Position numbers and translations under genes: made by a program. From assembly GCA_027036775.1 (NCBI GenBank), contig JALWDS010000031.1, forward strand, positions 1-64,000: a stretch of DNA of 64,000 nt. Direction: 5' to 3'. Numbering within the stretch: position 1 is the stretch's first letter; the number at the start of each line of letters is the position of its first letter. The notes under the pieces are model-generated. The model had not been told where the DNA came from, searched no databases, and saw nothing but the letters and a program-made list of their open reading frames with translations. Source of the stretch: Archaeoglobaceae archaeon. GTDB taxonomy: Archaea; Halobacteriota; Archaeoglobi; Archaeoglobales; Archaeoglobaceae. Below are positions 15,937 to 27,581 of this stretch, in pieces.

Positions 15937-16458
15937 ATGAGGATGTTGATTTTGATACTGATAACGGCACTTCTCCTTACGGGTTGCTCCCAGAAGGTCG
16001 AAAGGAATCTGGTTGTTAAAAGCGTGTTCGAAAATGGTGGTTACATTCCGAAGAAATACACATGCATGGGCGAGAACGTCAATCCACCCCTCTTCTTTCA
16101 AAACTTAAGTCCCAAAGCTAAGAGCATTGTAGTGATCGTTGAGGACGTTGACGCAAACGGATTTACCCACTGGATAATATACAACGTTCCGCCGATCGAC
16201 AAAATTCCAGAGGGAGTTCCAAAAGGGAAGTTCATAGAAAAACCTTTTAAGGCTATTCAAGGCAAGAACGACTTCGGATTCTACGGCTACGGCGGTCCTT
16301 GTCCACCTTCTGGAGTTCACAGATACTACTTCAGAGTTTACGTCCTCGACAAAACTCTCGAATGGAAGGAGTTCAGCAAGGAGAAACTCATGAAGGCAAT
16401 TGAGGGACACGTGATACAATACGGAGAGCTGATGGGTAAGTTTTCCTTTAAATCATAA
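15937..16458 (+). CDS. YbhB/YbcL (PEBP/RKIP-like) lipoprotein
   Basis: Lipobox LLLTGCSQ; IVEDVDANGFTHWIIYNVP and YGGPCPPSGVHRYYFRVYVLD motifs. Confidence 0.9.
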   Translation: MRMLILILITALLLTGCSQKVERNLVVKSVFENGGYIPKKYTCMGENVNPPLFFQNLSPKAKSIVVIVEDVDANGFTHWIIYNVPPIDKIPEGVPKGKFIEKPFKAIQGKNDFGFYGYGGPCPPSGVHRYYFRVYVLDKTLEWKEFSKEKLMKAIEGHVIQYGELMGKFSFKS

Positions 16459-16510: not shown

Positions 16511-17214
16511 TTATCAATCCTAGTATAGTCTGATTTTATCATTTCAAGGCGACTTAAAATATCTTCCGAAAGACTTTCCTTTCAATCCTAGTATAGTCTG
16601 ATTTTATCTTTCGAAGCGGAACGTGATAACTAACGACGGTTACAAGCTTTCAATCCTAGTATAGTCTGATTTTATCTCCTCCTTCTTCCAAGGAGCTGGG
16701 AACTCTATCTCGCTTTCAATCCTAGTATAGTCTGATTTTATCAGCCGTTCAGAACCTTCAAAATTAGTGGCTAATTTTTCTTTCAATCCTAGTATAGTCT
16801 GATTTTATCGCGATAGGAATAATTAAGAAGTATTTGAGGATTTATACTTTCAATCCTAGTATAGTCTGATTTTATCAGCTGTATAACAGTCCTCTCGTGA
16901 TCGCATGTAGGTTCTTTCAATCCTAGTATAGTCTGATTTTATCAACCTACTGAACTCAAGTCGATGCTCAAATATGTCATCTTTCAATCCTAGTATAGTC
17001 TGATTTTATCCATTGTATATGTTTTCGTCCCAAAAGCTCTTTGGTAAATCTTTCAATCCTAGTATAGTCTGATTTTATCACAAGCTTGCATGGTCTGCTT
17101 ACGAGTTGGCATTGCTCTTTCAATCCTAGTATAGTCTGATTTTATCTATAATTAACAGCACTCTTATTGTTTCTTATTAAATCCCTTTCAATCCTAGTAT
17201 AGTCTGATTTTATC
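16511..17214 (-). CRISPR. CRISPR array 1: 11 repeats of 30 nt, 10 spacers of 36-39 nt
   Basis: Repeat on minus strand GATAAAATCAGACTATACTAGGATTGAAAG; copies at 16511 (degenerate end), 16579, 16647, 16713, 16780, 16847, 16914, 16981, 17050, 17117, 17185. Confidence 0.98.
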
Positions 17215-17499
17215 TGTGTAGTTATTGAGGAGATTTTTGAATAAAAAGGTTTCGGAGTGTTTTGATTATTTAAATACGATCTGGCAAGTCTGATAATGCA
17301 CTTCATTTATAAAGATGCCAGACTTTTATCCCTCCCTTCTTTTCAAAATTGACGACCCGTCAACCGATTAAATCAAATTTAAAACCCTGTCCCCTTGGCA
17401 ATCCCGAAAAATAATTTCCTCCTACCCCCTTTCCCCCATCCGAGAAAATGTAAATTATATCCCTATACTATCCAAAACCCTTATTTTTTAATGCCAGAC
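17215..17499 (-). promoter_or_regulatory. CRISPR leader 1 (left arm of long inverted repeat)
   Basis: Adjacent to the 5' end of the repeats of array 1; reverse complement nearly identical to 25957-26241. Confidence 0.85.
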
Positions 17500-17539
17500 C
17501 AAACGAAAAGCTTTTCTTTGTCCTTATCAGACATCACAA

Positions 17540-18037
17540 ATGCTTAAAGAGATGTATATCAGGGGAGTTCAGGTAAACTACTACTTCGTTTGCAAGACTA
17601 AACTCTGGCTTTTCAGTCACAACATAGGATTTGAGAACGAAAGCGATCTCGTCAAGCTTGGGAAGATTCTTCACCTTGAGGTTTACGACAGGCTTAGTAA
17701 GGACGTTCGTATAGGCCCCATAGCAATCGATGCCGTTAAGGTTGGAGATACTGTTGAAATAAGGGAGATTAAAAAGTCGGATAAGCTTGAGAAGGCTCAC
17801 GTCTTTCAAACCCTGTATTATCTGTATTACCTCAAAAAGCACGGGATAAGGGCAAAGGCCATTTTGACCTATCCTAAACTCAAGAAAAGTGTTGAGCTCG
17901 AATTGAGTGAGGATGCTGAAAACGAAATCAACGATTTGCTTGAGAGTATTGAGAGTGTAGTTAAAGGTGAGATGCCCAAACCGAGCTACAAGAGTCAATG
18001 CAGGAGATGTGCATACTACGAGTTCTGCTTCTCTTAG
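17540..18037 (+). CDS. cas4: CRISPR-associated exonuclease Cas4
   Basis: [20 protein letters not shown]-terminus, [25 protein letters not shown]-terminal [11 protein letters not shown] cluster. Confidence 0.93.
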
Positions 18038-18045
18038 GTGGTCCT

Positions 18046-18996
18046 ATGAAGAGGAAAAACTTCTACATTTTATCGGACGGTAAGTTGATCAGAAGGGAAA
18101 ACACGCTTTACTTCGAAAACGAGGACGGTAAAAGGCCTATTCCAATAAATTCGATCTACTCAATATACGCTCTGGGTTCCCTAAGCGTAACGTCCAAAGC
18201 TTTATCTCTCTTGGCTAAGGAGGGTGTGTGCATTCACTTCTTCAACAGATACGGATTTTACGAGGGCAGTTTTTACCCGAGAGAAACTCTTATCTCTGGA
18301 GATTTGTTGATCAAACAGGTGGAACACTACTTGGACGAAGAAAAGAGGTTGTATCTCGCAAGATGTTTCGTTGAGGGGGCTTTGAGGAACATGAACAGGG
18401 TTCTCACCCCATACGGTTTGAGCTTGGATTTCGAGTTGGATGATGTTGATAACGTTAGGGAACTGATGGGATTCGAAGCCCTTGCAAGGCAGAGATACTA
18501 CGGCTATCTCGATGAAATTTTGAAGAACTTCGATTTCGGAGTGAGGAGTAAGAGACCGCCGAAGAACGAGATAAACGCAATGATAAGCTTTGGAAACTCC
18601 CTTCTCTACTCAACCGTTCTATCTGAACTGTATCACACACAGCTGAATCCAACCGTGAGCTACTTGCACGAACCCTTTGAAAGGCGTTTCAGTTTGGCCT
18701 TAGATATAGCGGAGATTTTCAAACCGTTCGTAGTAGATAGGCTCGTAATATACCTCGTCAACAAGAGGATAATTAAAGAAGACGACTTCAACAGGGACTT
18801 TAACTGCGTTCTTCTGAACGAAAACGGTTACAAAAAGTTTATCAAAGCTTACAACGAGAAGCTCGAATCCACGATCAAGCACAGGCAGTTGAAGAGGAAT
18901 GTTTCCTATCAACGGCTCATTAGGTTGGAGTGCTACAAGCTGATAAAGCATCTTTTGGGAGTTGAAAAATACAGACCTTTGGTAATCTGGTGGTAG
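18046..18996 (+). CDS. cas1: CRISPR-associated integrase Cas1
   Basis: [94 protein letters not shown]. Confidence 0.96.
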
Positions 18997-18997
18997 T

Positions 18998-19261
18998 ATG
19001 TTCGTTATTTTGGCTTACGATGTAAACGTAGAGAGGGTCAATAAAGTTAAAAAATTTTTAAGAAGATACTTAAACTGGATTCAAAATTCGCTCTTCGAAG
19101 GAGAGATTAGCGAGGCAGACTTGGAGGAGATAAAGGTAGGTCTGAAGAAGATAATAAACGAAAGCGAAGACATGATCGTGATCTACAAGCTCAGAACAGA
19201 TAGGGTTGTAAAGAGGGAGATAATGGGTTTGGATAAGAGCAAGACCGATGAGATAATTTAA
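18998..19261 (+). CDS. cas2: CRISPR-associated endonuclease Cas2
   Basis: FVILAYDVNVERVNKVKKFLRRYLNWIQNSLFEGEIS. Confidence 0.95.
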   Translation: MFVILAYDVNVERVNKVKKFLRRYLNWIQNSLFEGEISEADLEEIKVGLKKIINESEDMIVIYKLRTDRVVKREIMGLDKSKTDEII

Positions 19262-19311
19262 TTGTATGCGTTTATCGGAAGTTTTATCGTTTGCAATACG
19301 GTAATTTTTGT

Positions 19312-19431
19312 ATGCTTGAAAGTAGAAATCTTGCGGAAGCTTTACTTCTAAATGAGAAGCTGAGGAAAAAGTCTAAGATAGATACGACTGAAATCATCAG
19401 AAATTGGATGGACGGTAGAATTCAGTTTTGA
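19312..19431 (+). CDS. Short ORF (39 aa), possible antitoxin fragment
   Basis: ATG...TGA giving MLESRNLAEALLLNEKLRKKSKIDTTEIIRNWMDGRIQF; 3' end overlaps the degenerate hepT tail. Confidence 0.3.
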   Translation: MLESRNLAEALLLNEKLRKKSKIDTTEIIRNWMDGRIQF

Positions 19432-19767
19432 TGTTCTAACTCTCTAAGAACGTTTTCAATTTTAGGTCTTAGCTCTTTAAGGTGTTTTCTTATAACCGTC
19501 CAGACTATACTCAAATCGACCCTCGTGAATAACGATATTTCTAAATCCGCCAATCTTTTTCCATGGTATATCTGGATACTTTGAGCGAAAATCTTCAGGT
19601 ATGTTTTTCAAAGCTTCACCTATTATCTCAAGGTTTCTGATTACCGCATCAACAACTAAATCGTTTTTAACAAAATCGTCAAAATCCATGTCCTTTGTGT
19701 ATTTCTCTATCTTCTCAATGCACTCTAAGATGTCGTAAAGAAACAACCTAACGTCTCTTTTAGACAT
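19422..19767 (-). pseudogene. hepT: HepT-like HEPN toxin (DUF86), frameshifted
   Basis: ORF 19477-19767 gives ...FRNIVIHEGRFEYSLDGYKKTP*; reading the +1 frame after CAC GAG G gives VDLSIVWTVIRKHLKELRPKIENVLRELEHQN*, the expected HEPN C-terminus. Confidence 0.8.
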
Positions 19768-20056
19768 AAACGACTTCCTCTTTTATGTATTTCCAGAGCA
19801 AAGGCTTTCTAACGACTCCACCTTTCGGAACTAGATCTACCTTTATACCTAATATCTTTTCAAGGTATTCTTTGAGATCGACGATCTCCCAGCCGATAGG
19901 CTTTTCGAATTCGACTAAAGTATCTACATCGCTAACTTCTGTCTGCTCGTTTCTCACATAAGAACCGAATATCCCAATTTCTTTGACTCCAAATTTCCTT
20001 TTCAGTTCTTCTTTATGCTCTCCTAGGATTTTCTTAATCCCTTCCAACGTTTTCAT
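19760..20056 (-). CDS. mntA: MntA-like nucleotidyltransferase antitoxin
   Basis: GIFGSYVRNEQTEVSDVDTLVEF (GSx10DxD minimal nucleotidyltransferase motif). Confidence 0.88.
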   Translation of the reverse strand: MKTLEGIKKILGEHKEELKRKFGVKEIGIFGSYVRNEQTEVSDVDTLVEFEKPIGWEIVDLKEYLEKILGIKVDLVPKGGVVRKPLLWKYIKEEVVYV

Positions 20057-20089
20057 AGTTTTAGTATTCGTTTAACAGTTGATAAAATT

Positions 20090-22315
20090 TCAGTATATCA
20101 ATGCATTCTCTTGGCAGATATCTATTTGATCCAAAAACCCTGATAACTTCTCTGTATCAAAATAACCAATCTCATGAGAATATTGAAATCGTGGATTTAG
20201 CAAAACTGGTATATTACCTATTTCACCAATTGAATCTTGATTTAGACTGTCAATTATCCACCATATTGGAACTGGAGTGAAATATTCTTTAATCCTTCGT
20301 AACCTATACTTTTCATCACTATTAAGAATGTCCATTATCGTTGTTCTAAAGCATTTTGGAATTATCAAAGCTGTATTAGTGTCTCTAAACTTTAGGAGTT
20401 TGTTTAATTCATTATCTGTTAAATCGATTGAAAAGAAGTATTTAGTATCGTTTTCCCACTTTTCAATATACCTTTTAATTTCTCCTAATTCATTTTGATC
20501 TAAATCCAGAGGATTTTCTCTAAAACGTTTTATCAAAATTAACTCATTTTTAATCCTATCTTCCAACCGTATTAGTTCGTTAAAAGTTGCTTTGATTTCT
20601 TCCTTTTTGTAGGGATACCTCTTACCTTCGTCAATATCCTTGGGATAAAATATACTAACGTTTACACTCTTTGTGTAGTTTGAGTATCTGTTTACTCTGC
20701 CAAATCTCTGGATTAATGACGGTATTGGAGCTACTTCCGTAAATAAGTAATCAAAAGACACATCGAGACTAACCTCTGCAACTTGTGTAGAAACTAACAC
20801 AAAGCCTTTTGGTAGTCTTGATAGTTCTTCTAAACGAATTTCTTTATCTCTCCTGTCACGATAGGTAAATCGAGAATGTATTAGAATCATTCTCTTGAGA
20901 TTGTATTCGTTTTTCAGTAGTAGATACGTTTTAATAGCCTTTTCAACCGTATTACACAAAACTAAAACGTTACAGTCTTCAGCCTTTTTAACTATTGCTC
21001 TCAACGATTCATCTTCGGTTATGTCTGAGGGTTCAACATTATACAGATACCTTCTTTTCTTCTCATATTCATTGATGAATTCAAATTTTACTAAACTGGT
21101 GTATTCATTAATCAATTTTTCCAAATCGGGATGAGAAGTTGCAGACATGAAAATCGATTTAATATTGTATCCGAAATTTTCATTAAATTTCTTTATAAAG
21201 TTTAGTAAGATATACAATCCATTAATTGGATAGGCATGGAACTCGTCAAATACAAATACAGAATTTCTAAAGTGGAATCTCTTTAAAAAGTATTTACCAA
21301 CATGCAAAAAGCTTAAAATAATCTGATCCAGAGTTGTTATAGTTATTGGACTCATAAATGATTTCGAAATGAACATATCGAAATCAACAACTGATTCGTT
21401 ACCTTCACGAAGTTTTTCAACATCCGCAAAATAATAGTTCTCTTCAACTCTACAGTTGAAAACCTTGCTAAGCGTGTCCTTCATCTTTCTTATTGACGTT
21501 ATAGTTGGCAAAACGTAAATTATATGTCTTGGATTCCTATTTAGGGCAATCGTTAAGGATGCAAAAGTTTTACCCCACCCTGTTGGTGCTGTTAATAACA
21601 CGTCACCTTTTGTATTAGCCATCTTGCAAAAGATTCTCCACCGATTTTGATCGAATTTTAATCCTTTCGACCTTATGTATTCTTTGATATTTGATTCTAT
21701 TTGGCTTTTGCTGAAACTTGCGATCTCTTCGAAGATCACGTTATCTTTTTCAAACATGGCTGAGATAATGTCCGCAGTTTTGAATATACCAAACAAATCT
21801 GCGTAAACGACGTTGAGATTTAAATCATTTAATTTTTCCTGTAATTGCACCAATGCCGAGTAAATCTGTTTTATTATATAATTTGCTTTTTTATTTATTT
21901 CAAACTTTGTTTCTTTTGTAGCTCGTCTTATATATCTCAATATTTCTCGACATTTTGGAGGAGAAGGACAAGTATCTTCTAATTTCAAATGAGAGTGATG
22001 TTTCAAAATTAGATAGAAAAGTATCGGATCAAAGTTCTCAGAGTGATTAAGATACATATACGCTGACAATGCAGAATGTGGTGGATTTTTGTCGTTATCT
22101 ATGCTCCACTTAGGATTTAACTTACCTATGTCATGCCAATCCGCAAGAGCATCGATTATATCCCTAAATTTTAGTAGATCATGTTTTTTAGCCAGTAAAT
22201 ACGATATTTGCTTAATTTCTTCAATATGTTCATAAAGTGGCTTCATTATTCCATTTTTCTTATGGGATGCCTTTGATAGGTTATCTAGTCCTAAAGATGC
22301 AAAATCCATAATCAT
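20090..22315 (-). CDS. cas3: CRISPR-associated Cas3 with N-terminal HD nuclease and helicase domains
   Basis: LADWHDIGKLNPKWS HD motif, TAPTGWGKTFASLTIAL Walker A, VFDEFHAY, STQVAEVSLDVSFD and QRFGRVNR motifs. Confidence 0.93.
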   Translation of the reverse strand: MIMDFASLGLDNLSKASHKKNGIMKPLYEHIEEIKQISYLLAKKHDLLKFRDIIDALADWHDIGKLNPKWSIDNDKNPPHSALSAYMYLNHSENFDPILFYLILKHHSHLKLEDTCPSPPKCREILRYIRRATKETKFEINKKANYIIKQIYSALVQLQEKLNDLNLNVVYADLFGIFKTADIISAMFEKDNVIFEEIASFSKSQIESNIKEYIRSKGLKFDQNRWRIFCKMANTKGDVLLTAPTGWGKTFASLTIALNRNPRHIIYVLPTITSIRKMKDTLSKVFNCRVEENYYFADVEKLREGNESVVDFDMFISKSFMSPITITTLDQIILSFLHVGKYFLKRFHFRNSVFVFDEFHAYPINGLYILLNFIKKFNENFGYNIKSIFMSATSHPDLEKLINEYTSLVKFEFINEYEKKRRYLYNVEPSDITEDESLRAIVKKAEDCNVLVLCNTVEKAIKTYLLLKNEYNLKRMILIHSRFTYRDRRDKEIRLEELSRLPKGFVLVSTQVAEVSLDVSFDYLFTEVAPIPSLIQRFGRVNRYSNYTKSVNVSIFYPKDIDEGKRYPYKKEEIKATFNELIRLEDRIKNELILIKRFRENPLDLDQNELGEIKRYIEKWENDTKYFFSIDLTDNELNKLLKFRDTNTALIIPKCFRTTIMDILNSDEKYRLRRIKEYFTPVPIWWIIDSLNQDSIGEIGNIPVLLNPRFQYSHEIGYFDTEKLSGFLDQIDICQENALIY

Positions 22316-22968
22316 AACCTCAAAAAACAATCGTAAAGTGGGACACCACCGATCACATTAACCTTCTCCTTTAGTTTAAACTTAACGTTTAGTCCCATTA
22401 CGACCGTTTTTGGCAATCCTGTATACACATAAGGCAAATTGTAAACGATACTGTTTTCTGTCATTTCTAAAGAGCCAAAAAGATTTTGCGGTAAGTATGT
22501 ATTTTCGATTTCATCCGTTTCTTCGTATTCGTCATAGAGCTTTGGATTTTCGATATCAAAAAAGATAAAATCGTTAATTCCCGCATAAGGGACGAATTCG
22601 AAATCAAATTCGTTAATTCTTTTATACAATTTGTCAATTGTCTCCTTGTTGCCCCATATAGCGTATCTGTATTTTGGTCTAAACAATATTATTAACTCTT
22701 CTGTTGTTCGTTCTTCCCTACTTCTTTTTAGCTTCAATAATTGTGCGTTTTCTCTACATACTCCTTTAATTTCGAGCAACCTTGCACCAGCTTTAAACTT
22801 AGTTCTTTCTTTAATGTATTCTTCTCGACTTTTTCCAAGAATTGAAAAGAAAAAGCCTATTACTGTAGTTGGTAGAGGTATAAGATAAGATACTCTACTT
22901 TTCATCGTCGTATGAACTCTAAAATGTGCTAAGTCGAAGAGAACATCAACCGTCAATCCCCTTTCCAT
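22312..22968 (-). CDS. cas5: CRISPR-associated protein Cas5
   Basis: HFRVHTTMKSRVSYLIPLPTTVIGFFFSILG N-terminus; position between cas7 and cas3. Confidence 0.85.
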   Translation of the reverse strand: MERGLTVDVLFDLAHFRVHTTMKSRVSYLIPLPTTVIGFFFSILGKSREEYIKERTKFKAGARLLEIKGVCRENAQLLKLKRSREERTTEELIILFRPKYRYAIWGNKETIDKLYKRINEFDFEFVPYAGINDFIFFDIENPKLYDEYEETDEIENTYLPQNLFGSLEMTENSIVYNLPYVYTGLPKTVVMGLNVKFKLKEKVNVIGGVPLYDCFLRL

Positions 22969-23837
22969 TCACCTCTCACCAACCATTTTGCCATCTTTTC
23001 TATATCTTCACTTGGAACAATACCCGACTTTAAGTCATAAACTTCCAATAATTTTTTGCTGTCATCTTTACTTAAATCCGGTTTTGTGAATGTGTTATTA
23101 TCAACATCTATTTTTTTCCAAATTGGATACAGCTTTTCACCACAGTAAACTATTGCAGAAACATGCTCAGCCATTGTAAAGAAATTAGCCCTTCTCGGAT
23201 ACGCCCAACCTTCGTTGAGTAGAATCTCCAATAATGCCTTTACTCTGTTCATTCTTTCATCATCGTCCAACTTATAGCCACCATTGATTCTTTCAAGCTT
23301 TCCATCTTTTATGTATTCATCCCATTTTTTCAGCTGATCGGTTTTTTCACTTTCAGCAAATATACCACATCTTTCAGTAATCACAATTTTCATCAAACCT
23401 ATAAAGTCCGCAACCTCGATTTCAAACGGTGTTGGATTTGCTTCACCCAATTCTCTTGGAAATCTACCTCCAAAATCGATTTGTATTGGTGTGTGTTCAA
23501 TTGCCACGATTGGAGACATCGAAATCGGTGAGACTCTCGCTTTTTGCTGATTTCCTTTAATGTAAAGATACCCAAACAAATCATTATCAACATATTCTAT
23601 AGGATCTCCGCTGTCCGCTAACTTGTTTCCTTCACCAATCCTAAAAGGATCAACTTTAAACCCAAATTCCTTGAGCTTTTCTCTAATTCCCCTTTTCACA
23701 GCTCTGGCAGAAACGAAAGGGTATGTCTCTCCACTTGCTGAAACCAACTTTTTAATTCTAATTCTGTCGCCTTCAACTTCGTTTGCGTTCACATTTCCCG
23801 AAATATGTGTTAAAAGTCCAATAACTATTTTTCTCAT
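22953..23837 (-). CDS. cas7: CRISPR-associated protein Cas7 (Cst2/DevR-like)
   Basis: GLLTHISGNVNANEVEGDRIRIKKLVSASGETYPFVSARAVKRGIRE and SPISMSP. Confidence 0.88.
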   Translation of the reverse strand: MRKIVIGLLTHISGNVNANEVEGDRIRIKKLVSASGETYPFVSARAVKRGIREKLKEFGFKVDPFRIGEGNKLADSGDPIEYVDNDLFGYLYIKGNQQKARVSPISMSPIVAIEHTPIQIDFGGRFPRELGEANPTPFEIEVADFIGLMKIVITERCGIFAESEKTDQLKKWDEYIKDGKLERINGGYKLDDDERMNRVKALLEILLNEGWAYPRRANFFTMAEHVSAIVYCGEKLYPIWKKIDVDNNTFTKPDLSKDDSKKLLEVYDLKSGIVPSEDIEKMAKWLVRGEWKGD

Positions 23838-25165
23838 TGCTTTCCACCTCCCACATAACTATTCCAAAGAATTACAATGAATTCGTTTTTCACTATAAAG
23901 AAATCTCTAATTGGCAGTGTTACAAGGTCTTGAGGAATCGACACTTTAATATCCTCCCTTTCCAACCTTGGCAGATAGGAAACCAGCTTTTCTACAAATG
24001 TTATAGGCGTTTCTTCACTTTTTAAGTCGAGGATTATCCTTTTCAACAAGCTCTTTTGTGTATCTCCTTTGTTAGCTAGCTTTCCAATTTCAAAAGCTAT
24101 AGCTTTCATCTGTTTTCGCAAATTTTCAAGACCACTCATAGCATCACCTCCAAAAAACTTTGATTGGACGTAATCTACGTAGTAGATTTTACTAAAATTA
24201 TAATCTGGTCTTTCCCTTTTAGCTCTAAACTCTAGCGAGATTTTTTCACTTATAGCCTGTGATAACTTTTGAACGTTTAAGTAGCCTTCAATTAGGATTG
24301 AAAAGGCTAAAGATGAGAGTAGCGAGTAATAAGACTCAACTATGTTTTGGTTTTGTAGTCTTGGCGGTTTTAACGACTCCAAAAATATAACGAATTTGAA
24401 TTTTAGATTATCTGTTAAATCATCATCGCTAAAAAATAAATCGTACAATCTTTTAAGGTTTACAATTGGGTGATAGATGGATGTCCATTTATTTCCGCCA
24501 CTGTTATTTAAGATAAGAGTTTCAAAGTTTAAATTTTGGATATTATCACCTCTAAATTTTAAATCCTCCATGATAATACAAAGTAAAAATAAAAGGGTAA
24601 AGTAAGCTGAAGTAGGATATACTGGCAATTCGTAGGAAATATCCCCATCAATATACGTTCTTGTGATTTTGCCAACCTTTAATTTAAAATCGTAAATTCC
24701 TCCAACTTCTCTTAAGCTCCTTATAAGCTTTTCAAGGTCTTTATTCTCACTCCTAATTCCGACGATTGTCCTTTGTTTTAACTTTTTACCCTCAAGTCTA
24801 ATTAAATCAAGATAATAAAAAGACAGTAACCAATTTAGTATTTTTTCCTTAGATTTTTCGCTTACATCCATTTTATAATCAGAGAAATGATAGTTAGGGG
24901 CTTCACTTTTTTGCAAAATTGTTGGAAAATGAGATGAACTTATATCCTTAGTTTCCATTAAATAGTCTAACACAATTTTTGCACAATCCTCTATACAACT
25001 TGCTTCCTTAAAACGTTTAGATATATTTGGTATTGCTCCGGATAAAACAGCATTTAATAATCCATCAAAATCTATTGGTATTTTTCTGTCTTTGCCACTA
25101 TCCTTTTTCCAACCGGCCCAACGAATCCTCTTTAGTATTAACTGCTCTAAACTCTTTCCACTCAT
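23834..25165 (-). CDS. cas8: Divergent Cas8 large subunit
   Basis: Large poorly recognisable ORF between cas6 and cas7, overlapping cas7 by 4 nt; assigned mainly by position. Confidence 0.65.
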   Translation of the reverse strand: MSGKSLEQLILKRIRWAGWKKDSGKDRKIPIDFDGLLNAVLSGAIPNISKRFKEASCIEDCAKIVLDYLMETKDISSSHFPTILQKSEAPNYHFSDYKMDVSEKSKEKILNWLLSFYYLDLIRLEGKKLKQRTIVGIRSENKDLEKLIRSLREVGGIYDFKLKVGKITRTYIDGDISYELPVYPTSAYFTLLFLLCIIMEDLKFRGDNIQNLNFETLILNNSGGNKWTSIYHPIVNLKRLYDLFFSDDDLTDNLKFKFVIFLESLKPPRLQNQNIVESYYSLLSSLAFSILIEGYLNVQKLSQAISEKISLEFRAKRERPDYNFSKIYYVDYVQSKFFGGDAMSGLENLRKQMKAIAFEIGKLANKGDTQKSLLKRIILDLKSEETPITFVEKLVSYLPRLEREDIKVSIPQDLVTLPIRDFFIVKNEFIVILWNSYVGGGKQ

Positions 25166-25189
25166 ATTATTACACCCAACTCGGAAATA

Positions 25190-25897
25190 TCATACCACTT
25201 TCACCATTCCAAATCCCATGCTATTCCTCTCACCAAACCCAGCCTTGTAACCCAACTCAAGCAACTCCTTGCTACCTTCGGCTTTGAAGACCATCTCCAC
25301 GCATCTGTGGTAGGTATTTTTAACTTTAATTCTTTTCGGTTTAACCTTCAGAGGTTTGATGATGAGATCGGTGTTCTCTGGCACTTCTCCACGTAAAGCT
25401 ATATACTTCCTTATCAAGTTCCTTTTTAAGTTTTCGTAAAACTTCGGATCGTTCGGGTAGAGATCGTAGGGCCTGCCATCTTTTACGGTCGTAACGTTTA
25501 TAGGGGAAAGAGTAGCGAACGTTGCTTTATTTTTAATTTCGTGCTCCTTTAAGACTTTAACGCTCGATACAACCAACTCTAAACTCCCTATTTTCACGTT
25601 GGGGTCTTTGAGCAAGCCCTCAACAAAACTCTCCGCTATCTCTGGTTTTGGTGTTGAAAAGTAGAGGTTGACCACATCGCTCTCTATTATCATCTTATCT
25701 CCAACGATCTTAAACTTCCTCCTTGGAACGTCTATCCTGCTGAATGTGAAAAATTTGAATCCGTTGTTAAAGTGCAGACCCAACGAAAGCCAAGGGTCCG
25801 ACAGCTTTATACACCTATACACAAAGCTCGCCACGTAGTAATTGTAGTTAACGTCAATTGTGTTTTCGATCACGTTAAACTCCACCTTGAGTCTCAT
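25190..25897 (-). CDS. cas6: CRISPR-associated endoribonuclease Cas6
   Basis: C-terminal glycine-rich loop GYKAGFGERNSMGFGMVKVV. Confidence 0.92.
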   Translation of the reverse strand: MRLKVEFNVIENTIDVNYNYYVASFVYRCIKLSDPWLSLGLHFNNGFKFFTFSRIDVPRRKFKIVGDKMIIESDVVNLYFSTPKPEIAESFVEGLLKDPNVKIGSLELVVSSVKVLKEHEIKNKATFATLSPINVTTVKDGRPYDLYPNDPKFYENLKRNLIRKYIALRGEVPENTDLIIKPLKVKPKRIKVKNTYHRCVEMVFKAEGSKELLELGYKAGFGERNSMGFGMVKVV

Positions 25898-25956
25898 ATC
25901 TAAACGCTATCCTTTGTAGTAGATAACCCTTGTTGAATTTAGATACCTTTCCGACG

Positions 25957-26241
25957 ATCTGGCGTTTTAAAATAAGGGTTTTGGATAGTATAGGAATATA
26001 ATTTACATTTTCTCGGACGGGGGAATGGAGGTAGGAGGAAATTATCTTTTGGGATAGTCAAGGGGACAGGGTTTTAAATTTGATTTAATCGGTTGACGGG
26101 TCGTCAATTTTGAAAAGAAGGGAGGGATAAAAGTCTGGCATCTTTATAAATGAAGTGCATTATCAGACTTGCCAGATCGTATTTAAACTTCCAAAACACT
26201 CCGAAACCTTTTTATTCAAAAATCTCCTCAACAACTACACA
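25957..26241 (+). promoter_or_regulatory. CRISPR leader 2 (right arm of long inverted repeat)
   Basis: Immediately upstream of array 2; near-identical inverted copy of 17215-17499. Confidence 0.85.
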
Positions 26242-26931
26242 GATAAAATCAGACTATGTTAGGATTGAAAGTCGGTTGGGTGCGGGGGGTAAAAAAACAA
26301 AAAAATGAGATAAAATCAGACTATGTTAGGATTGAAAGCTGATTTGAAAGGTATTTTAAAAGGAGAATTGTATAAGATAAAATCAGACTATGTTAGGATT
26401 GAAAGATAATTGTCAATATACGACACGTGAAGCTCTCCGTTGATAAAATCAGACTATGTTAGGATTGAAAGTATGTTAAACCCAAAGCTTATTAAAAAGA
26501 GTAACAGAGATAAAATCAGACTATGTTAGGATTGAAAGATCAGACGGTAGAGTAAGCTGTTCTATCAGACCACTTGCCAGATAAAATCAGACTATGTTAG
26601 GATTGAAAGTTGAGTATATCCCCTACAACATCGTTAGCCATATCCAGATAAAATCAGACTATGTTAGGATTGAAAGACTGTATGCAAATGTGGGTAATTT
26701 TTGAACGGGCATTGATAAAATCAGACTATGTTAGGATTGAAAGGTGCTCTTGCCAAAGAGCTAAAACTTCCTTTCTTGAGAGATAAAATCAGACTATACT
26801 AGGATTGAAAGAAAATTGACGGCGTTAATAAGATCGCAATACCAGTGATAAAATCAGACTATACTAGGATTGAAAGATACAATCGCCGACTACGATTGTT
26901 AGGTTGTCATGTGATGATAAAATCAGACTAT
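26242..26931 (+). CRISPR. CRISPR array 2: 10 full 30-nt repeats plus one truncated terminal repeat
   Basis: GATAAAATCAGACTATGTTAGGATTGAAAG at 26242, 26309, 26376, 26442, 26509, 26580, 26647, 26714; variant ...TATACTAGG... at 26782 and 26847; truncated GATAAAATCAGACTAT at 26916. Confidence 0.98.
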
Positions 26932-27474
26932 ATTCAAACTTGGGGCTATTCTGTTGGCCAATTCCAAGTCTTCGGGTGTATTCACGTTTAAAGAAAGGAG
27001 GGGATTTTTCAGTTCTAAAAACATCTCACCCTCAAAGCCGACGGCATTCAAACCGACCAATATCCAGCCTTTGTATTTTGGCAAGCTCTCGACTTTCACG
27101 AACTTGGGCACGATCTTCGGGTTTAAGACACCAGTTAAGCTTATCCCCCTAAAGTTTCTTGCTATCTCGTTGATGTCTTCAACCCTAACGAACGGAATAT
27201 CGCACGATAGACTTACAAATTCACCGAACTCCCTTAAGATGAACGTCACGTCTCGAACGTAACCTTCACCAGACGTTTCTATCGTTTCTATGCCTTGTTT
27301 TCTGCAGAATTCCGCCGTTTTGGGTGTGTTTTTGCTGACCGCAACGAAAACGTCCCCCACCTTGACAGCCTTTTCGTAAACCCAGAGTATCATTGGTTTG
27401 TTCCCAACCAAAGCCAACGGCTTTTCAAATCCCATCCTGCTACTCTTCCCACCGGCCATTATCACGATAAACAT
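26923..27474 (-). CDS. cobY: CobY/MobA-like nucleotidyltransferase (probable adenosylcobinamide-phosphate guanylyltransferase)
   Basis: MFIVIMAGGKSSRMGFEKPLALVGNKPMI NTP-transferase signature, LSCDIPFV; start chosen at 27474. Confidence 0.75.
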   Translation of the reverse strand: MFIVIMAGGKSSRMGFEKPLALVGNKPMILWVYEKAVKVGDVFVAVSKNTPKTAEFCRKQGIETIETSGEGYVRDVTFILREFGEFVSLSCDIPFVRVEDINEIARNFRGISLTGVLNPKIVPKFVKVESLPKYKGWILVGLNAVGFEGEMFLELKNPLLSLNVNTPEDLELANRIAPSLNIV

Positions 27475-27581
27475 GTTCGCTAAGATTGTAAGATTATTTA
27501 TAAAACTGTTGCTTGCAAAATCTCGCACTTCAGAGGGGGGTTGGTGGTAGTTTTAAATATCTAAAATCTCTGGACTGGAAT

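Follow-up and report, generated by a model that had tools for sequence, protein, structure and literature searches.

The cas genes of an Archaeoglobaceae archaeon (NCBI GenBank assembly GCA_027036775.1) are enclosed by an inverted repeat. On contig JALWDS010000031.1, of which positions 1 to 64,000 of the forward strand make up the window analysed here, an 8.46-kb type I-B cas cassette lies between two arrays of clustered regularly interspaced short palindromic repeats (CRISPR), with the leaders of the two arrays facing each other across it. The initial annotation had proposed that recombination between these leaders would invert the cas block, and that each leader could act as a divergent promoter region for one array and one cas operon. 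What, then, is the reason for the existence of this repeat? We found a real structure of an ordinary kind: the arms of the inverted repeat are two of the five copies in which an ordinary CRISPR leader occurs in this genome. More interesting than the inverted pair itself are a motif triad within the leader and an exchange of flanking genes between CRISPR units. The best overall explanation, which we hold to be probable, is that a leader family serving five arrays, with a shared motif triad, has been recombining and rearranging the chromosome.

The inverted repeat and the leader family

A repeat search of the window placed the arms of the inverted repeat at 17185-17498 and 25958-26271 (314 nt, 94% complementary), with 8459 nt between them. 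In the alignment, the arm-to-arm identity is continuous rather than scattered, and each arm consists of a whole 284-nt leader and the first CRISPR repeat of its array. The repeat stops at 17498 on the left and at 25958 on the right, and the start codons of cas4 (17540) and cas6 (25897) follow 41 nt and 60 nt past the respective arms. The initial description of two near-identical inverted leaders, each with its outer end next to a cas operon start, is thus confirmed, and its leader coordinates (17215-17499 and 25957-26241) were correct to within one base. The arrays and their leaders are as follows.

16511 to 17214, minus strand: CRISPR array 1, with 11 repeats (GATAAAATCAGACTATACTAGGATTGAAAG), the distal one degenerate, and 10 spacers of 36-39 nt
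17215 to 17498, minus strand: leader 1, the left arm, 284 nt, one of five genomic leader copies
25958 to 26241, plus strand: leader 2, the right arm, 284 nt
26242 to 26934, plus strand: CRISPR array 2, with 10 full repeats, one truncated terminal repeat and 10 spacers

Matches to the left leader in its own genome were found on the contig of the window (C31, both arms), at C2:50754-51027 (copy C2a), at C1:13429-13707, at the end of contig C2 and at the start of contig C34. As the last two have an overlap of exactly 125 nt, they were taken as one leader broken by the assembler (copy C2b), which brings the total to five copies. The left arm is 98% identical to C2b, 96% to C2a, 95% to the right arm and 93% to the C1 copy. 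Each of the five leaders adjoins an array of about 4 to 11 spacers; the repeat is the same in all of these arrays, and no spacer is common to two of them. Since the left arm is closer to C2b than to its partner, we rejected gene conversion confined to the two arms.

For comparison with relatives, cas loci in the family were fetched through relatives of Cas1, as a scan with Cas8 recovered a single relative, and the stretches beyond the cassette were read where contigs allowed, some contigs stopping shortly after it. The same convergent cassette was present in several relatives, and an array adjoins cas4 in most relatives with legible loci. No array was seen directly beside cas6 in any of the stretches inspected past cas6, some of which end early. 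With an array on the cas4 side alone in the surveyed relatives, this genome has probably gained the one beside cas6.

The initial proposal of divergent promoters can be assessed from the short stretches between the arms and the cas genes, which contain the following.

17504 to 17519, plus strand: candidate cas4 promoter, CGAAAAGCTTTTCTTT, outside the inverted repeat and similar in relatives by sequence comparison
25917 to 25929, minus strand: candidate cas6 promoter, GGGTTATCTACTA, likewise outside the inverted repeat and similar in relatives

Many relatives have a promoter-like stretch some 25-40 nt before the cas4 start codon, with a GAAAAG-CTTTTAT or a TTATTTAT-like box, and upstream of cas6 the sequence AAGGGTTATCTACTA of the window resembles AAGGTTATATAATAG of the relatives. 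A leader acting as a bidirectional promoter, for one array and one cas operon, would be consistent with outer ends just 41 and 60 nt away from cas4 and cas6, and with a motif copy (described below) at the outer leader edge that could influence cas promoters. However, three other leader copies have no adjoining cas gene, and both cas4 and cas6 have, some 20-35 nt from their start codons and beyond the arms, promoter-like sequences similar to those found in relatives, even in relatives without a cas6-side leader. As the candidate cas promoters lie outside the arms and appear to be kept in relatives, it is improbable that the cas genes have their promoter in the leader. This weakens the divergent-promoter proposal, which in its simple form is unlikely, and we give a bidirectional role of the leaders a small probability.

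The second proposal, inversion of the cas block, fared differently in its two parts. The geometry stood up: a crossover between the arms would flip the cas block and keep the array polarity. In principle the repeat should also be recombinogenic, given the mosaic leader copies and the apparent exchange of flanks among CRISPR units on the scale of the chromosome, both described below. On the other hand, no inverted cassette was seen in any relative surveyed. The arms could in principle constitute a dedicated inversion switch, which would flip the cassette and change which array or leader drives which operon, and inverted repeats bounding the segment (314 nt, 94% identity) provide a perfect geometry for it. 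The arms also share an identical run of 129 nt, as do the C1 and C2b copies, all other pairs of leaders having runs of at most 79 nt. As this run exceeds the 125-nt contig overlap at the broken leader, this draft does not secure which way round the cas block lies, and both orientations could exist unseen. The repeats of an invertible cassette are, however, specific to it and not dispersed, whereas this leader exists in five genomic copies, with the two arms not mutually closest. In addition, the gene adjoining the array in relatives is cas4, and with candidate promoters outside the arms each operon would keep its own after an inversion, leaving little to switch. Inversion of the cas block by recombination between the arms is possible, but a dedicated switch is in our view very improbable.

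A three-fold motif in the leader

Alignment of leaders from the family revealed a short motif in three places: in direct orientation at about -284 from the first repeat, again in direct orientation at about -108, where a TTATAAA box follows immediately, and in inverted form near -70. The motif reads TCTGGCA in this genome and TCGTCCA or a sequence beginning with TCGCA in other genera, and the copies tend to agree within a leader. In most leaders, copies 1 and 2 are spaced 176 nt apart. The inverted repeat has its outer end precisely at the first base of motif copy 1, so that the triad explains where the inverted repeat ends. The copies in the two arms are located as follows.

17491 to 17498, minus strand: leader 1, motif copy 1, TCTGGCAT, at -284 from the first repeat
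17280 to 17322, minus strand: leader 1, motif copies 2 (TCTGGCAT, at -108) and 3 (TGCCAGA, inverted, -72 to -66), around the TATA-like CTTTATAAAT
25958 to 25965, 26134 to 26141 and 26170 to 26176, plus strand: leader 2, the three motif copies, the first being TCTGGCGT

In this genome, the combination TCTGGCAT-N(15-40)-TGCCAGA occurs in the five leaders only. When motifs were permuted between leaders, none of 5000 permutations reached the observed agreement, for copy 1 and copy 3 alike. With one leader per genus (7 genera), exhaustive permutation gave P = 0.002 for copy 1, 0.0002 for copy 3 and 0.0004 for both, and the opposite motif orientation fitted worse. A pattern search with the leader core added further leaders, among which those of G010, G068, G057b and G070 fit the triad.

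Several points weigh against assigning a function to the triad. The leaders of three genomes (G015, G054 and G040) have no clear motif copy 1, and that of a fourth (G046) fits weakly or is without copy 1. The motif was spotted by eye in the alignment before it was tested, so the tests are post hoc. Moreover, there are only about four to five independent motif classes, and as the genera are not fully independent the permutation overstates independence. The pattern might then be shared ancestry or low-complexity noise rather than a protein-binding site: the motif is only 7-8 bp long, the leaders are AT-rich, some of them match the triad badly, and the motif windows were picked after looking. Yet the copies vary together between genera with a constant spacing of 176 nt in most leaders, the permutation with one leader per genus still gives P = 0.002 and 0.0002, and the motif in opposite orientation gives a poorer fit. 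We consider shared ancestry or noise to be an unlikely explanation, though a more serious one than the inversion switch or the bidirectional promoter.

Judging from three motif copies at fixed places together with an array promoter, the leader of about 284 nt would be a single functional unit. The triad may be a genus-specific recognition motif that defines the CRISPR leaders of this archaeal family at fixed spacing, read by a co-evolving factor which folds about 200 nt of leader for spacer integration or array transcription, with the same leaders acting as recombination sites that exchange array flanks chromosome-wide. We put this full proposal forward tentatively, at somewhat less than even chances.

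A probable exchange of flanks between CRISPR units

The left and right arms differ at 12 of the 110 outer and 5 of the 175 inner positions, while the left arm and C2b differ at 4 of 110 and 4 of 175; in the outer 110 nt, left-right and right-C2b are the most different pairs (12/110 each). Among pairs of informative sites, 60 of 105 are incompatible with one tree, and for this reason the leader copies are probably mosaic, with segments exchanged among them.

The genes that flank the CRISPR units point to an exchange on a larger scale. We compared the genome of the window (G000) with a congener (G002) in which no cas1 match was found and which has no array at the places compared. Names such as cofC, PEBP and mobA come from reading translations, and those of the cas genes from family searches. 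The flanking genes in the window are listed below.

15937 to 16458, plus strand: PEBP-like gene at the distal end of array 1; its neighbour in the congener is cofC
26923 to 27528, minus strand: MobA-like gene at the distal end of array 2; its neighbours in the congener are cbiZ-cobT

The congener has the adjacencies cofC-PEBP, hemB-AAT (an aminotransferase gene), mobA-cbiZ-cobT and gatE-DUF1152. In the genome of the window, the neighbours at the outer ends of the leaders are cofC, hemB, cas4, cas6 and the gatE side, and those at the distal ends of the arrays are AAT, cbiZ, PEBP, mobA and DUF1152. A simple insertion accounts for the gatE-DUF1152 site. The three other adjacencies (CofC/PEBP, HemB/AAT and MobA/CbiZ) are split, and all six resulting ends adjoin CRISPR units and form a closed set. 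The synteny breakpoints thus lie at CRISPR loci, as in CRISPR-mediated rearrangements of the Thermotoga type. Since six of six ends at CRISPR units make up a closed set, the simplest reading is that dispersed CRISPR units recombined with one another and exchanged their flanks on the scale of the chromosome, rather than that the cas block was inverted.

Some observations argue against this interpretation. Other breakpoints between the two genomes lie nearby but not at CRISPR units, indicating that rearrangement is common here. The junction on the HemB side crosses a contig break. An ordering test of the mosaic sites, of the pairwise homoplasy index (PHI) type, was not significant alone (P = 0.08), and the case for recombination among leaders is therefore carried by site incompatibility and synteny. 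In relatives of genus g9, cofC was not beside PEBP in the stretches read, so that either of the two genomes may be the nearer to the ancestor. A search of the congener junctions with short exact strings found no remnants of repeats or leader motifs.

Could the flank exchange be an assembly artefact at repeated leaders? The genome is a draft of 48 contigs with one contig break inside a leader, and the left-right and C1-C2b pairs each have the 129-nt identical run. However, no other copy has more than 66 nt in common with the C2a leader, so the join CofC-leader-array-AAT, which differs from the congener, should be resolvable. The left leader is confusable only with the right one, and the PEBP and MobA flanks join the same cas cassette either way, while the C1 site agrees with the congener. 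An artefact is hence hardly probable, and exchange between CRISPR units remains the preferred interpretation.

Taken together, these observations can be accommodated in one scheme, of which the five leader copies, the locus layouts of relatives, the covarying motif and the closed set of breakpoints are observed, and what the motif does, which way the change went and how the exchange took place are deduced. One leader family would serve five small arrays with a single type I-B adaptation module (cas4-cas1-cas2) in common. Ancestrally, the family would have had one array-leader unit beside cas4, with the adaptation and interference operons converging; in this genome a second leader-array unit lies beside cas6, so that two leaders are turned towards each other. 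A trans-acting factor, perhaps an accessory regulator or the adaptation complex, would read the motifs and thereby affect array transcription and the placement of new spacers. A common function, together with recombination among all five copies, would keep the leaders near-identical, and through this recombination dispersed CRISPR units would have swapped flanks and the chromosome would have been rearranged. By the same route the cas block could be inverted.

The cas cassette, its arrays and known parallels

The cassette contains two converging operons, one on the plus strand (cas4-cas1-cas2) and the other on the minus strand (cas3-cas5-cas7-cas8b-cas6).

17540 to 18037, plus strand: cas4 (TIGR00372, PF01930; Cas4b)
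18046 to 18996, plus strand: cas1, type I-B, HMARI (TIGR03641, E = 3e-138)
18998 to 19261, plus strand: cas2 (TIGR01573; Cas2b)
19477 to 20056, minus strand: HepT/MntA-like HEPN-nucleotidyltransferase pair (PF01934, PF01909), between the convergent cas operons
20090 to 22330, minus strand: cas3, HD-helicase (TIGR01587; Cas3b)
22312 to 22968, minus strand: cas5 (TIGR02592/TIGR02593; Cas5b)
22953 to 23837, minus strand: cas7, Cst2/DevR (TIGR02585)
23834 to 25165, minus strand: cas8b (PADLOC PDLC01589, E = 6e-144)
25190 to 25897, minus strand: cas6 (TIGR01877)

The set of effector proteins, with the signature protein Cas8b accompanied by Cas5, Cas6, Cas7 and Cas3, assigns the system to type I-B; the adaptation module cas1-cas2-cas4 is present, and the arrays are of the corresponding kind, with repeats of about 30 nt ending in ATTGAAAG, spacers of about 35-41 nt and an adjoining leader. 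Cas8b had no match in the 54 other genomes of the family, and the PADLOC Cas8b model had none in any other genome of 394 in the phylum. Given this absence from the family, it appears that the effector was swapped and the adaptation module retained. The sole relative recovered by a Cas8 scan of genome contigs lies on QMNL01000138.1. This contig of 5.7 kb bears the title of a Candidatus Coatesbacteria metagenome-assembled genome and carries cas8b-cas7-cas5-cas3 with 73-84% identity to this system; it is probably mis-binned or transferred. The HEPN protein is short (96 aa, with a Pfam match ending at position 93 of 120), and the HEPN/MNT pair is found at the same place in one relative (G058) with 84-88% identity. 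A second, distant cas1 (27% identity) is encoded elsewhere in the genome (C44:2103-2999).

In array 2, the eight leader-proximal repeats are of the ..TATGTTAGG.. type and the two distal ones of the ..TATACTAGG.. type. The switch (within 26242-26876) involves two bases and occurs without intermediate, and the distal TATACTAGG type is that of array 1. Spacer 5 of array 1 (16877-16913) matches at 37 of 37 positions a site further along the same contig (C31:85256-85292, L028:9257-9293), in an integrated virus-like element beside tRNA-Val which encodes a D5-type primase and a DnaA-like ATPase. The 5' flank of this target is GGGA. The self-match may reflect escape, repression or an inactive system. 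Comparison of 17 spacers with phage records, from which a protospacer adjacent motif might have been read, gave no match. Two spacers of other arrays, C2a_s11 (29/37) and C1_s2 (27/37), match the same element. In the array at the end of contig C2, an open reading frame of 98 codons replaces a spacer between two repeats (L014:14288-14623), with weak Pfam matches, and an 81-aa open reading frame of the virus-like element (L028:14567-14812) resembles it by eye. On the same stretch, a dCMP deaminase gene is split by an intein with a LAGLIDADG domain (L028:5612-7375).

Arrays on both sides of a cas cassette, or several near one cas set, have been described before. In Sulfolobus islandicus REY15A, CRISPR loci 1 and 2 are drawn with their cas genes (PMC3025118), and in Thermotoga sp. 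RQ7 a cas6-cas2 cassette is sandwiched between CRISPR loci 3 and 4 (PMC5637354). As far as those two loci are described, the present case differs in that the leaders are near-identical over their full 284 nt and oppose each other across convergent operons, with the surveyed relatives having the cas4-side array only. For the motif triad, the closest parallel is the type I-A system of S. islandicus, in which the accessory factor Csa3a binds a distal leader motif (-143 to -94) and acts with Cas1, and mutation of the motif lowers spacer uptake (PMC9456107). Both motifs are leader-distal and far from the integration site. Here, by contrast, the reader is putative, and there are three copies (-284, -108 and inverted at about -70) which change between genera, in subtype I-B and not I-A. 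In the IHF-dependent leaders of types I-E and I-F, as that report presents them, an upstream site is likewise separated from the repeat, implying DNA bending (PMC9456107), but the spacing is much longer here, with 176 nt between motif copies. For systems without IHF, the means by which the leader end is marked for spacer integration is said to be largely unknown (PMC9456107), and a triad that varies between genera and is consistent within leaders offers a testable handle on the factor involved. Finally, in Thermotogales, CRISPR loci have been credited with large-scale chromosomal recombination between related genomes (DeBoy et al., 2006, as cited in PMC5637354 and PMC1790904). Relative to what these citing papers relate, the present case concerns an archaeon, and three breakpoints pair as a closed set among dispersed CRISPR units; the flank exchange would be an archaeal example in support of the view that chromosomes are reshaped by CRISPR loci.

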